Source: Methanosarcina horonobensis HB-1 = JCM 15518 (GTDB lineage: Archaea; Halobacteriota; Methanosarcinia; Methanosarcinales; Methanosarcinaceae). Taken from it: a DNA stretch of 64,000 bases. The notes below the pieces were generated by a model, which did not search any database, was not told the DNA's origin, and saw nothing but the letters and a program-made list of their open reading frames with translations. The number at the start of each line of letters is the position of its first letter. Position 1 is the first letter of the stretch. The position numbers and the translations under genes were made by a program. Positions 56,574 to 64,000 of this stretch are shown here, piece by piece. The stretch lies in contig NZ_CP009516.1 in the NCBI RefSeq assembly GCF_000970285.1, positions 3,451,036 to 3,515,035 of the forward strand, given 5' to 3'.

Positions 56574-57635
56574 ATGGTAAACACACTTTCTCACCTGGGA
56601 ATAGGTTTTCTCATTGCCCTGGCTTTAGGCCTGAGAGGAAAGAAATTAAAAATCGTGGCTTTTCTTTCCGTAATCCCTGATCTGGACATTATTCCATACT
56701 CCATATTTATCTCTGTTAGCAACAGCCTGACCCATGAGTCCAGAATCCAGCTTTTCTACCTTTTCGGGCACAGGGAGTTTACGCATTCAATTTTATTCGT
56801 TTCTCTGGTTACGCTTTTAATCTGGACTAAAAGCAAAGACTGGATTCTTACCTTTGCCGGGTTACAATCAATTTTATCCCATATTTACCTGGATTATATC
56901 ACAACCTGGAAAATGCGGCCTTTCTATCCGTTCAGTACAGATACATCCATAATGGGGGCAGTCTACTTCTATGACCCTCTGCTAAATTTGCTTCCACTCC
57001 TGCCCCTGTTAATTGTAATAATTGGAAGTTTGAAGAAGAGAGGAATAATAAATGGCAAATTCAATAACTTTTGTAATTTTGTGAGAAATAGTGATGATAA
57101 ATTCTATTCTTTCCTGATCCTTGTGCTCCTTGTCTGGCTTGTTTTTATGCCGGTTTCAAAAGCCTTTCTGATCAACCATATATCAGGGGCAGAGAAAGCC
57201 CAGATAAGTTACCAGAATACTTACCCCGAATCCATGAACAGTTTTCTGACTGCATACTCGTTTAACTCCACACATTATAAAGTTCTTAGAGTCAGCTACC
57301 TTTCAGGAATCGAAATGAGTGGTTACGTTGAAAAAATCTCAATAAACGGAAATGTTCCTGATGCTTCTGCTTATATAGATAGAACGAAGAAGCTTTATAG
57401 TTCCGGTGTTCCCCAGGAAATCGATTACCCGGTGTATGCAGTTTCGGAAGATAACGGCTCTGTAATAGTTACCTTGAGTGATGCAAGGAACCCTTATGCT
57501 GAAAGCTGGGCTTATTTTAAATCGATTTACAGATTTACTTTTGATAAAAGGAGTGGGGATTACCATGTTTATGCAAGTGTCCAGGGAGAGAGCGAAAAAA
57601 AGCTTGATGAAAACTGGTTTAATAAAAAGGTCTAA
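56574..57635 (+). CDS. YdjM/DUF457-type membrane metal-dependent hydrolase, paralogue 1
   Basis: The 353-residue protein starts VNTLSHLGIGFLIALALGLR and has the DUF457 (LexA-binding, YdjM) pattern: His in LSHLGIG, IPDLDIIPY, FGHREFTHSILF and LSHIYLDYITTWKMRPFYPF, which form a His/Asp metal site at the membrane face. About four transmembrane segments lie in residues 1-170 and another at about 185-205. The last 150 residues form an outside domain (SDARNPYAESWAYFKSIYRF). Two paralogues follow at 57950 and 62014. The reaction of this family is unknown. Confidence 0.82.
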   Translation: MVNTLSHLGIGFLIALALGLRGKKLKIVAFLSVIPDLDIIPYSIFISVSNSLTHESRIQLFYLFGHREFTHSILFVSLVTLLIWTKSKDWILTFAGLQSILSHIYLDYITTWKMRPFYPFSTDTSIMGAVYFYDPLLNLLPLLPLLIVIIGSLKKRGIINGKFNNFCNFVRNSDDKFYSFLILVLLVWLVFMPVSKAFLINHISGAEKAQISYQNTYPESMNSFLTAYSFNSTHYKVLRVSYLSGIEMSGYVEKISINGNVPDASAYIDRTKKLYSSGVPQEIDYPVYAVSEDNGSVIVTLSDARNPYAESWAYFKSIYRFTFDKRSGDYHVYASVQGESEKKLDENWFNKKV

Positions 57636-57949: not shown

Positions 57950-59125
57950 ATGGTAAACACGCTTTCTCACATAGGAATCGGTCTGCTTCTTGCTCACACT
58001 CTGGGACTGAAAGGAAGGAAAAGACTTGGCATTGTTCTCCTTTCTATAGTCCCTGACCTTGACTATTTCACCTATTCGCTATTTACGCTTATCAGTGGTG
58101 GTGTAAGCCATGAAGCGAGAAACCAGCTTTTTTACCTGCTGGGCCACAGAGAGTTTACGCATTCTGTCTTTTTTGCTGTTATTATTGCATTTCTTATCTG
58201 GCTTAAAACTAAAGACAGGACTTTTACATTTGGAGGGTTTCTGGCAGTCTTCCTGCACAGCTTTCTCGACTATACTACAAGCGCAAAAATGCGTCCCTTC
58301 TATCCATTTAGTGCAAACGAGTCAGCACTTAGAGCCATCTATCCTTTCGATCCCGTGGTAAATGTCATTCCCCTTCTACCCCTCTTCATTGTAGCTGCGG
58401 AATACATGAAAAAACGAAACATAAGGACTACTAAAATTGAAGACAGATGGAACACTGAGGACATATGGAACGATAAAAACGTGGATCTACGGGCTCTGGA
58501 AAGAAAAGACAGATGGAGCATTAGAAATAAAGATATCCTGAACCGAAAACTAAAAGGGTTCAATGGGTTCCATAACTTTGTAATCAGGAACGAAGGCAAA
58601 TTCTACGCCTCATTTATCGTTGTCCTTCTCATCTGGACCACAATGTTTCCTGTTGCAAAGATCTTCCTGATTGACCGTATCTCCAGAGCTGAAGGGACCG
58701 AGATAAGTTACAACGATACTTACCCGATATCGTTTGGCAAATTCCTTGCAGTTTATCCAATAAGTGATGCCCGTTACAAACTCCTTGAAGTCAGTTACTG
58801 GTCCGGAGTCCAGAAGAGCTTTTATGTCGATAAGATAACCGTCACCGGAGATGTTCCGGATACCTCTGCCTATGCCGAAAGAACCGGAGAGCTATACACT
58901 AATTCAGTGCCTCAAGCTATCGATTACCCTGTTTATTCGGTTTCGGAAAAAGACGGGACTGTAACCGTAATCCTGAGCGATGCCAGAAACCCGTATGTTA
59001 AAAACTGGCCTTATTTCGATACGGTTTACAGGTTTGTGTTTGACAGGGGAAGTGGAGAATATGAGGTATATGAAAGTCACTACGGGAGAGAGGAAAAAAA
59101 GCTTGATAAGAACTATTTTGAATAA
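57950..59125 (+). CDS. YdjM/DUF457-type membrane hydrolase, paralogue 2
   Basis: The 391-residue paralogue has the same motifs: VNTLSHIGIGLLLAHTLGLK, VPDLDYF, LGHREFTHSVFF and LHSFLDYTTSAKMRPFYPF. It differs by an insertion of some 40 charged residues after the fourth helix (RTTKIEDRWNTEDIWNDKNV onward), which lies on the cytoplasmic side if the topology is as predicted. The C-terminal outside domain ends SDARNPYVKNWPYFDTVYRF. All metal ligands are kept. Confidence 0.82.
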   Translation: MVNTLSHIGIGLLLAHTLGLKGRKRLGIVLLSIVPDLDYFTYSLFTLISGGVSHEARNQLFYLLGHREFTHSVFFAVIIAFLIWLKTKDRTFTFGGFLAVFLHSFLDYTTSAKMRPFYPFSANESALRAIYPFDPVVNVIPLLPLFIVAAEYMKKRNIRTTKIEDRWNTEDIWNDKNVDLRALERKDRWSIRNKDILNRKLKGFNGFHNFVIRNEGKFYASFIVVLLIWTTMFPVAKIFLIDRISRAEGTEISYNDTYPISFGKFLAVYPISDARYKLLEVSYWSGVQKSFYVDKITVTGDVPDTSAYAERTGELYTNSVPQAIDYPVYSVSEKDGTVTVILSDARNPYVKNWPYFDTVYRFVFDRGSGEYEVYESHYGREEKKLDKNYFE

Positions 59126-59292
59126 TCCTGAATAGCATTTATGGCTATTTCTGCTGTAAGGATTTGATAGAGAGTGGTTTTTGGAATAAAGAAAAAGGTA
59201 CCAAAATATAAACCAAAATATAAGAAAATAGGATTTTCTTTAACCTTATATTTGAAAATGTTTGGTAATGTGCTACTTTCTCGTGAACAATC

Positions 59293-60621
59293 GTGAATAA
59301 TACAATATGGATAGAAATTCATCCAATTGTTGTCACAAACTCTTTAATTAAATCATACATATCTTTCAGGATGAACTCCAAAAACAGTGTAGATCAGTCG
59401 ATGAGAAGATATATCATTGAAACGAAGCAAGTGATTCACCCCTTCGAATTACCAGCCTCCAAACTGCCAGTATTAAATAAGCCAATCTTCGAACATCAAG
59501 AAGATGTATTCAAACATTTAAAAATTAAAGAAAAACCTCTTTTCATCTCATCATTAGAAGAAATTAATCAATCTACCTATCAAGCGCTCGTTTACCGTGA
59601 CGATATTTACTTCAATAAAGAATTAGTCTTAGAATTTTTGAAAAAGGCTTCATCAATTGGAAAGCCTGCACGTTTAGCATTTTTAGATACCGATTCTTGT
59701 TTTAGCGTAAATGCCTTTTACCCATAGCATAATATGGAACATGTGGGGAATCTATACATGGGAGACATTTTCTTTTTTCCAGCTGGAGCGCAAGAAAGAG
59801 ATTTTACACCTGTAATAATAGATACAAAAAGCATACCTATTTCCTGTTTCTCCTTGCCATCGTCAGAATTCGATTCGGGACAAAGACCAACAAATAATCC
59901 GCTTGCAGCGATACCTCCATTGCAACTGCAAGTACCACTATTATCTTATATCGCGATCAAACATTGGGTGCAGCTACTTTTTGCCAATTTTACATGGGGT
60001 ATCCATTGTCAGATACGCCAATTAAAAGCTAAAGTTGAAAATCAAAATTTGTTATTTAGAAAAGTACTATCTTTTCTATCAGGAAGTCGCGGTCCAATCC
60101 GTATTGGGGTAGATTGTCAGATAGATCCTACAGCAACTATTATAGGCCCAACTACTATTGGAAATGGGGTTTTTATTGGACCAAATGTAACTATTGTAGC
60201 GTCACATATTGGTGATCATGCTGTTCTTGAGCCAGGTTGTACGGTCTGGTTTGGAGTGTTAGGAGAAAGGAGCAGTCTTCTTGCCAATAGAAATATTGTC
60301 ATGAGCTGTGTTATGAGTGATTCAATTATTAATACAGATATCCGTTATTCAATAGTGGGAAGTAATTCTTTTCTTGGTGCTGGATCACATATTACAGATT
60401 GTATTCTGAGGAATGCTGAAGAAGATGAAAACAAAATGAATTCGCTGATGGTGAAAGTTCTCGCTGGCGAGGAGATAGTTAATTCCGGATATTATGTTCT
60501 GGGCCCAGCTATCGGCAACAGAGTTAAAATAGGGTCTGGAGTAATCATCTACCCAGGTCGAATGATAAAATCCAATAGCGTAATTATTGCTAAAGAAGGA
60601 TGCTGTATTATTGACAAGTAA
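59293..60621 (+). CDS. Hexapeptide-repeat protein with one in-frame UAG
   Basis: A single frame of 443 codons runs from GTG 59293 (or the ATG at 59371) to TAA 60619, interrupted only by TAG at 59725-59727 (residue 145, context FYP-TAG-HNMEHVGN). The N-terminal part has ETKQVIHPFELPASKLPVLN and ALVYRDDIYFNKELVLEFLK, similar in layout to sugar-phosphate nucleotidyltransferases but without their GXGTR signature. The C-terminal part has a left-handed beta-helix of hexapeptides (IDPTATIIGPTTIGNGVFIG, then ERSSLLANRNIVMS). The codon use is more AT-rich than its neighbours, which suggests transfer from a bacterium. Methanosarcina reads UAG as pyrrolysine, so this could be one protein; it could equally be an amber nonsense mutation in an acquired gene. 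Confidence 0.55.
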
Positions 60622-60843
60622 TTATATGGCCTACAGTTTTCAGAGCATTAAAGAAAGATTTCCTAAAAGTAAAACAGTTTTTTGCTTCCAATAAACAGCA
60701 GTGAACGCAATCTTGATTCAGTAAGAAGTTATTTTAATAAAAAAGAAGTTGCTTCCGATTACTCCTTATCCGAATGTATCTAAAATGATATATAAGATAA
60801 AAAGTCGTAATCGGAGTGAACTAGACCCGAAATGGCTTTTCAA
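60622..60843. other. Short spacer after the hexapeptide gene
   Basis: No gene. The base composition remains AT-rich, like the gene before it, so the transferred segment may extend here. Confidence 0.35.
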
Positions 60844-61455
60844 TTACTTCTGAATCTCCTTGAAGTATTTATCAATTTCTTCCCAGTTAACTATGTTCCA
60901 GAAACCTTCTATGAATTTGCCCCTATCATTTTTGTAATCGATATAGTAAGCATGCTCCCATACATCCAGATCCATAATAATCGGATAATCAGGAACTAGA
61001 TTCACGTTATGCTTCTCTATCTGCATAATCATTAACCTCTGTGTGTCTTTACAGTAGGTTAGTGCAGCCCATCCTGATCCTTCCACGCTTGATGCGACCT
61101 GGGAAAACTCCTTTTTAAACCTGTCAAAGCCTCCGAAATCCTCTTTGATCACATCAGCAAGTTCGCCGACAGGCTCTTTGCTTGCATTGCTTTCAGGGGT
61201 CATCTCCCACCAGAAATAGTCATGAAGGACGTGCCCACCCATATTGAAGGTCAGAGCTTTTGCAGTTGCCTTATAATCAAAATCCGTGCCTTCTTTCCTG
61301 GCTTTATCCATCATTTCGATAAGCGAGTTCGCATTATTCACATAAGCCTGATGATGTTTATCATGGTGTATGCGCAGCTGTTCTTCGGAAATGTAAGGTT
61401 CGAGGTCTGCATATCCGTACTTCAAAGGTGGTAATTTGTACAACTCTTTAGCCAT
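60844..61455 (-). CDS. sod: Superoxide dismutase, iron/manganese type
   Basis: This Fe/Mn superoxide dismutase turns superoxide into oxygen and hydrogen peroxide. The 203-residue protein has the metal ligands His 30 ([10 protein letters not shown]), the His in [11 protein letters not shown], and the Asp and His in [32 protein letters not shown] gives the N-terminal helix. Which metal is used cannot be told from sequence with certainty; iron is usual in methanogens. It faces the neighbouring genes alone and is a natural part of an oxidative stress response in an anaerobe. Confidence 0.95.
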
Positions 61456-62013: not shown

Positions 62014-63066
62014 ATGGTAAACACACTCTCCCACCTTGGAATCGGCCTCCTTATCGCTCTCGCCCTCGGCTATAAAGGAAAAAAACGAGGCTCTCTGGCA
62101 CTCCTGTCAATCCTCCCTGACCTCGATTTCATCCCCTACATCCTTTTTGCCCTTCTCAGCAGCAGCGTAAGTCACGATACCAGAAACCAGCTATTCTACC
62201 TCCTTGGCCACAGGGAGTTCATGCATTCCATCCTTTTTATCCTGCTTGTCACGCTTTTTATCTGGCTCAGGACAAAAGACCGCCTGTTCACAGCCGCCGG
62301 GTTTGCAGCCATTCTGTCCCACAGCTACCTTGATTATGCAACCAGCTGGAAAATGCGACCCCTCTACCCGTTCAGCACCGAATCATCCATCATGGGGGCA
62401 GTCTACTTTTTCGATCCTCTTGCAAACTTACTGCCCCTGTTGCCGGTTTTTATCGTGTTTGTAGGATATCTGAAAAGCCGGGGAAAATGGAACGGCAAAT
62501 TCAACAACTTCTGTACTTTTGTAACCAACAATCGGCGCAGCCTCTATAGAACGCTTGTAGTTGTACTTCTGGTATGGCTTACAGTCCTGCCGGTAGCAAA
62601 ATTCTTCCTTGTCAATCAGATTTCCGAAGCGGAAGGGACAAAAATAAGTTATCAGGGCACTTATCCGGTTTCACCCGTAAGATTCCTGGCTGCATACCAG
62701 TATAACGATACGCATTACAAAATTATGGAAATCAGTTACCTCTCAGGCATCAAAAGAAGCGATTTTATCGAAAAAGTTAACTCAACCGGCGGCGTCCCGG
62801 ATGCTTCTGCCTACGCTGAAGGAGCAGGTGAACTCTACAGCACAGCCCTTCCTCAGGAAATCGATTATCCTGTTTATTGGGTTTCCGAAGATAACGGTTC
62901 GGTAACTGTCCTGTTGAGCGATGCAAGAAATTCTTATGTTGAAAGATGGGCGTATTTCAGGACAGTTTACAGATTTGTGTTTGATAAGGAGAGCGGGGAG
63001 TATGAGGCTTATGCGAGTGAGCAGGAGGGGAGGGAGAAGAGGTTGGATGAGAATTATTTTGAGTGA
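62014..63066 (+). CDS. YdjM/DUF457-type membrane hydrolase, paralogue 3
   Basis: The 350-residue protein is very close to paralogue 1: VNTLSHLGIGLLIALALGYK, LPDLDFIPY, LGHREFMHSILF (Thr replaced by Met in the HREFTHS motif), LSHSYLDYATSWKMRPLYPF and a C-terminal SDARNSYVERWAYFRTVYRF. The codon use is richer in GC than in paralogues 1 and 2, so it may have a different history, although the genes are of the same family. Metal ligands appear intact. Confidence 0.82.
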   Translation: MVNTLSHLGIGLLIALALGYKGKKRGSLALLSILPDLDFIPYILFALLSSSVSHDTRNQLFYLLGHREFMHSILFILLVTLFIWLRTKDRLFTAAGFAAILSHSYLDYATSWKMRPLYPFSTESSIMGAVYFFDPLANLLPLLPVFIVFVGYLKSRGKWNGKFNNFCTFVTNNRRSLYRTLVVVLLVWLTVLPVAKFFLVNQISEAEGTKISYQGTYPVSPVRFLAAYQYNDTHYKIMEISYLSGIKRSDFIEKVNSTGGVPDASAYAEGAGELYSTALPQEIDYPVYWVSEDNGSVTVLLSDARNSYVERWAYFRTVYRFVFDKESGEYEAYASEQEGREKRLDENYFE

Positions 63067-63203: not shown

Positions 63204-64000
63204 ATGGATAAAGAAGCCTTCCTGAATAAATTGGAATCTTCTGCTGCAAATAAGGACAAAAGATTGTTTTCTAAAACCATTATCGATCTTCCAGCTGATG
63301 TAATAGTTGGCTTTACCAAAGAGGAATTTTTAAGAATTATTTGCTTTTCCAAGTTGTTTAGCTCACAGAAGATGGACAGATTATGCAATTTTCTTGAAAT
63401 TAAGGGATCATTCTCTTTAAAAAACACGTTAAAAGGGATTGATGAACTGCATAATGCTCTTCTCAGTAAATTCTATTATAGTTTATATGTTTCTCTTTCC
63501 GAAAATAATAGAGAAAAAGCTAAACGTGCATTAGGAAATAATGCTGTTGCCTGCATCAAGATTGCTGAGATGGATGTTGACATCAAGGAAAATCTTGAAA
63601 CTGCTATCCATTTTTGCGAGACTGCTCAGGAAATATTCCCAAAAACGAGTGCGTCTTATGTTCTCGTATTGGCAAACGAGGGTTCTGCAAGATTGAAGCT
63701 TGCAGAGATAGGTGTTGACATCAAGGAAAATCTTGAAACTGCTATCCGTCTTTATGAAACTGTCCAGAAAATCTTTCCAAAAACAAGTGAAAATTACGCT
63801 AGTGCGTTGACTGACGAGATCTCTGCAAGAGAAATACTTGCAGAAACAGGTATTGACAGCAAAGTAAATCTTGAAACTGTTGTCCGACTATATGGAGTCG
63901 TTCAAGAAATTTTCCCAAAAACGAGTGTATCCTACACTTCTGCACTGACGAACGAAGGGAATGCAAGAGTAAGACTTGCAGAGATGGGCATTGATAGTAG
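63204..64000 (+). CDS. Tandem-repeat helical protein (runs off the window)
   Basis: From ATG 63204 the frame stays open to the end of the window (265 codons). The first 120 residues are helical and unlike the rest (DKEAFLNKLESSAANKDKRL). Then a 46-residue unit repeats every 138 bases, with starts at 63561, 63699, 63837 and 63975. Its consensus is LAEIGVDIKENLETAIRLYE then TVQEIFPKTSASYASALTNE and GNAR-K. The helix-pair arrangement is of the tetratricopeptide type, but the unit is longer than the 34-residue TPR. Proteins with many such units occur in Methanosarcina. The role is unknown, probably a scaffold. Confidence 0.75.
   Translation, partial: MDKEAFLNKLESSAANKDKRLFSKTIIDLPADVIVGFTKEEFLRIICFSKLFSSQKMDRLCNFLEIKGSFSLKNTLKGIDELHNALLSKFYYSLYVSLSENNREKAKRALGNNAVACIKIAEMDVDIKENLETAIHFCETAQEIFPKTSASYVLVLANEGSARLKLAEIGVDIKENLETAIRLYETVQKIFPKTSENYASALTDEISAREILAETGIDSKVNLETVVRLYGVVQEIFPKTSVSYTSALTNEGNARVRLAEMGIDS

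Follow-up and report, generated by a model that had tools for sequence, protein, structure and literature searches.

A private amber codon in a Methanosarcina horonobensis hexapeptide transferase-like gene is probably a recent nonsense mutation of a glutamine codon

RESULTS

A long reading frame at an inserted locus carries a single amber codon

The window analyzed here is a 64,000-nucleotide stretch of the Methanosarcina horonobensis HB-1 genome, covering positions 3451036-3515035 of a single-contig 5.02-Mb assembly. On its forward strand, the frame from 59293 to 60621 (442 residues) contains one internal stop, a TAG at 59725-59727 flanked by Pro and His codons, and is otherwise open. Reading of the frame thus confirms what a preliminary description of this DNA had claimed of the isolated TAG and of its Pro-TAG-His context. 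That description placed the amber at residue 145, and this position is revised here: homology and aligned starts favor ATG 59371 over GTG 59293 as the start, giving 416 codons with the TAG at codon 119. Among window ORFs of at least 120 aa, 1/50 ends in TAG. The features of the locus are as follows.

59371..60621, + strand: probable broken gene for a 416-aa protein (ungapped 79% identity to the intact ORF of Methanosarcina sp. Ant1; Hexapep PF00132 above cut-off)
59725..59727, + strand: in-frame TAG, codon 119, probably ancestral CAG (Gln) (CAG in Ant1 and G029; Gln in the remote homologue on L028)
59371..59724, + strand: N-terminal fragment of 118 aa, the predicted product if the TAG terminates (from the reading frame; no Pfam domain)
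59734..60621, + strand: C-terminal open frame of 295 aa from the ATG at codon 122, holding the hexapeptide domain (from the ORF list)
59314..60635, + strand: DNA homology with the Ant1 copy, covering the gene together with ~57 bp before it and 14 bp after it (85.7% in blastn, 1330 columns)
59130..60784, no strand assigned: insert of ~1.65 kb by comparison with relatives whose site is empty, lying between the ORF 57950-59125 and a superoxide-dismutase-like ORF at 60844-61455 (- strand)

In the related genome G010 the same flanks lie ~100-170 bp apart and the gene is absent, and the site is also short in G008, G009, G020, G027 and G006. That relatives have an empty site here demonstrates an insertion, in agreement with the earlier label of an acquired gene. 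A bacterial composition had also been claimed for the gene, but this was not borne out, as its G+C of 37% and GC3 of 0.29 are low yet inside the range of the other window genes. The flanking genes differ among the window, G029 and G004 copies, suggesting that the gene moves or was acquired at separate sites. Neither a transposase nor a convincing terminal repeat accompanies the gene. A 12-nt inverted repeat near its ends was taken as chance, with ~5 such pairs expected per 2.1 kb by our own estimate. Three related membrane-protein ORFs, all starting MVNTLSH (56574-57635, 57950-59125 and 62014-63066), surround the insert and the superoxide-dismutase-like gene, and similar membrane-protein ORFs lie beside the superoxide-dismutase-like gene in relatives. 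At 63204-63998 a protein with tandem TPR-like repeats begins and runs off the window end.

The predicted protein resembles hexapeptide acyltransferases in its C-terminal part

The C-terminal part of the protein is built of hexapeptide repeats typical of left-handed beta-helix (LbH) transferases, scoring 54.7 bits for PF00132 (cut-off 27), and the PF00132 match is present in all four homologues. It shares these repeats with the hexapeptide acyl/acetyltransferases, which include GlmU, LpxD and archaeal GlmU-like architectures. It differs from the GlmU/LpxD type in its N-terminal part, where the first ~240 residues have no Pfam match, and every NCBIfam match to the protein falls far below its cut-off. 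Of the solved structures, those matching best are carbonic anhydrases, a galactoside acetyltransferase and sugar-phosphate nucleotidylyltransferases, and each match is confined to the hexapeptide part. An AlphaFold model built from four sequences was too poor for use (pLDDT 38). The most that can be said is that the product would be an acyl/acetyltransferase-like protein.

Relatives carry glutamine at the amber site

The closest intact copy lies in Methanosarcina sp. Ant1, of the same genus as the window organism (L001:817-2067). It encodes 416 aa without a stop and is 79% identical to the window protein, aligning across the amber codon without a gap. Both sides of the TAG therefore read as one continuous protein, as had been proposed, and this two-sided match indicates that the open frame around the TAG is more than chance. 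Codon 119 is CAG (Gln) in the Ant1 copy and likewise in the G029 copy, which is 68% identical, and a remote homologue from genome G318 (L028), 34% identical to the Ant1 protein, has Gln in the same alignment column. With Gln119 thus invariant across the other three aligned homologues, the simplest history is that the TAG arose by one C-to-T change at a conserved Gln codon, a change seen in no other genome searched. The preliminary description had guessed Gln or Tyr as the original residue, and the homologues point to Gln.

These comparisons bear on how the amber should be classed. A coding frame that continues on both sides of the UAG is present. Ant1 supplies the intact homologue expected for a nonsense-mutated pseudogene, one that has a sense codon in place of the stop; a UAG kept at the same position in orthologs, the trait of dedicated pyrrolysine (Pyl) proteins, was not found. 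A sense codon in close relatives had been named beforehand as counting against a Pyl protein, and Ant1 and G029 both carry one. A one-base change that creates a stop in this gene would give TAG in ~25% of cases, so an amber needs no special cause and is weak evidence for recoding.

The gene family is sporadic and decaying, with a history of constraint

Matches at E<=0.001 occur in 25/31 Methanosarcina genomes, mostly as generic hexapeptide matches, and the gene family itself is held by 5/31. Full-length copies are found only in the window genome (G000), Ant1 (G011) and G029. The G004 copy is a fragment with several stops, and the fragment in G028 has also decayed. The G029 copy has its own single in-frame stop, a TAA at codon 105 (L004:1822-1824), where the other two long copies have TTA (Leu). 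TAA is not a Pyl codon. The G029 stop, too, lies shortly upstream of the conserved ATG at codon 122. Judging from these copies, the gene family is dispensable and often broken within the genus. No full-length relative was found in plasmid and viral collections. Nor was a second copy of the G318 homologue's family found among the 50 genomes searched, so this homologue may represent a rare transfer or a contaminant contig. It sits on contig 99 (5.1 kb) of an archaeal genome that is 72% complete, and its neighbors appear bacterial by eye, making contamination or recent transfer possible.

Between the window and Ant1 copies dN/dS is 0.27 overall, with 0.22 before the TAG and 0.29 after it. With G029 as outgroup, 34 amino-acid changes fall on the window lineage and 13 on the Ant1 lineage, and changes at codon positions 1/2/3 number 37/18/50 and 10/16/26, respectively. 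The third-position share on the window lineage (50/105) exceeds the neutral third (p=0.003), and no difference in codon-position ratio separates the window and Ant1 lineages (p=0.87). On these rates the gene was constrained through most of its history; the dN/dS of 0.27 and the third-position excess suggest that the break is recent or not fully inactivating. A recent break would be the simplest fit, and the data also suit an amber that is leaky or tolerated.

The genome encodes pyrrolysine machinery

The presence of pyl genes, which the preliminary description had left to be checked, was confirmed. A tRNA-Pyl with a CTA anticodon lies at L025:7461-7532 in this genome, with pylS above cut-off and then three ORFs in pylB-pylC-pylD order, named from their order and sequence. 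The Pyl machinery thus appears complete, and some readthrough of UAG is possible. The earlier proposal of a new non-methylamine Pyl protein is accordingly possible in its chemistry, but the sense codon of relatives speaks against it. In the pyl cluster itself, the pylB ORF (L025:9269-10309) has TAG as its stop codon, so UAG has a termination role there too, as is known in related species (PMC2933860).

As a control we examined MtmB. Each of its full-length orthologs of the Pyl type detected in the genus (>700 bits) has exactly one internal TAG; a few more distant MtmB-like paralogs (~286-326 bits) have no internal TAG. An Rfam scan of the region around the window gene gave no PYLIS family match, with only weak matches that all fell below gathering scores; Pyl insertion needs no cis element (PMC8211752). 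In M. acetivorans, an amber codon introduced into a reporter mostly terminated translation and gave 20-30% full-length product, and the Thg1 gene of that species has a private amber that is translatable as Pyl and dispensable for activity (PMC2933860).

DISCUSSION

We think it likely that an acquired hexapeptide transferase-like gene has been broken, probably recently, by a C-to-T change that turned a conserved Gln codon from CAG to TAG. We favor this reading because CAG stands in both other long copies, the family is sporadic and has decayed independently, and MtmB, by comparison, keeps its TAG. It corresponds to the second option of the preliminary description, an amber-broken acquired gene, which gains support from the ancestral CAG and the site left empty in relatives. 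In the proposed sequence of events, the gene would have been inserted at a site that is empty in related genomes, and a single C-to-T change would then have converted codon 119. Most ribosomes would terminate at codon 119, leaving a useless fragment of 118 aa, and a minority would read through with pyrrolysine, using the organism's own amber suppressor, making the mutation leaky rather than null. The 20-30% readthrough in M. acetivorans suggests that a minor Pyl-containing product may exist, and there is no sign of selection for Pyl at codon 119. Against this reading, the gene is intact apart from the TAG, and constraint is similar on both sides of the stop.

That last point speaks for an unlikely alternative, in which the amber is tolerated as in Thg1: on a sizeable fraction of transcripts UAG would be read as Pyl, and the functional full-length protein so made would have Pyl replacing Gln without being needed. 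The tRNA-Pyl, pylS and the pylB, pylC and pylD ORFs would permit this, and both the reporter and the private Thg1 amber of M. acetivorans offer precedent. Still-visible constraint can predate the mutation, however; the bulky Pyl may harm at an otherwise invariant Gln119; and the family is dispensable and often broken, also by TAA, which lies beyond Pyl rescue. Less probable still is a gene fission in which translation starting at the ATG of codon 122, six bases past the TAG, yields the C-terminal hexapeptide domain as a separate protein. The independent stops at codons 119 and 105 both lie upstream of this ATG and leave C-terminal frames of 295-298 aa intact, but that both of just two stops fall on the same side of it is weak evidence, and in the window-Ant1 comparison the N-terminal part is constrained at least as much as the C-terminal part. 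Inspection of the upstream sequence revealed no Shine-Dalgarno sequence before ATG 59734, although ATG 59371 lacks an obvious one too, so a reinitiation product is possible but unsupported.

We give still less weight to a one-base sequencing or assembly error. A single-base difference in an otherwise intact frame could arise in this way, but the contig is a complete 5.0-Mb chromosome, and the surplus of changes along the window lineage is what a real loss of constraint could produce. Least probable of all is that the protein is dedicated to pyrrolysine, with Pyl selected for a role at a functional site. The frame open on both sides and the Pyl machinery speak for it. Against it, the region gave no PYLIS match, although the element is not required, and no relative examined here has the TAG, all having Gln, whereas the full-length Pyl-type MtmB orthologs all keep theirs, and the sense codon in relatives already largely refutes it.

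Returning to the favored nonsense mutation, the closest precedent appears to be the private amber of M. acetivorans Thg1, such that a leaky amber here would be a further case and not a new kind. In both, the amber occurs in one species only, is absent from orthologs and lies in a non-methylamine gene of a Pyl-decoding Methanosarcina. Pyl has been physically observed in Thg1, whereas for the window gene it is a prediction; here the mutated residue is conserved, and the family is accessory and decaying. With MtmB, MtbB and MttB the gene shares a single in-frame TAG inside a long open frame and the same decoding machinery, but their TAG is conserved in orthologs (as tested for MtmB), whereas the window TAG is private and replaces Gln.

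The locus illustrates cleanly how an amber pseudogene and a Pyl gene can be mistaken for each other in Pyl-decoding archaea, and how an ortholog test resolves the matter: real Pyl genes keep the TAG, and the relatives of the window gene have Gln. If readthrough does take place, the gene would show amber suppression softening the effect of a nonsense mutation in nature, and if the gene has been captured by the Pyl system in the manner of Thg1, it would show how a Pyl-decoding genome tolerates CAG-to-TAG changes. Otherwise, it serves as a warning against calling Pyl proteins from an open frame and the presence of pyl genes alone.
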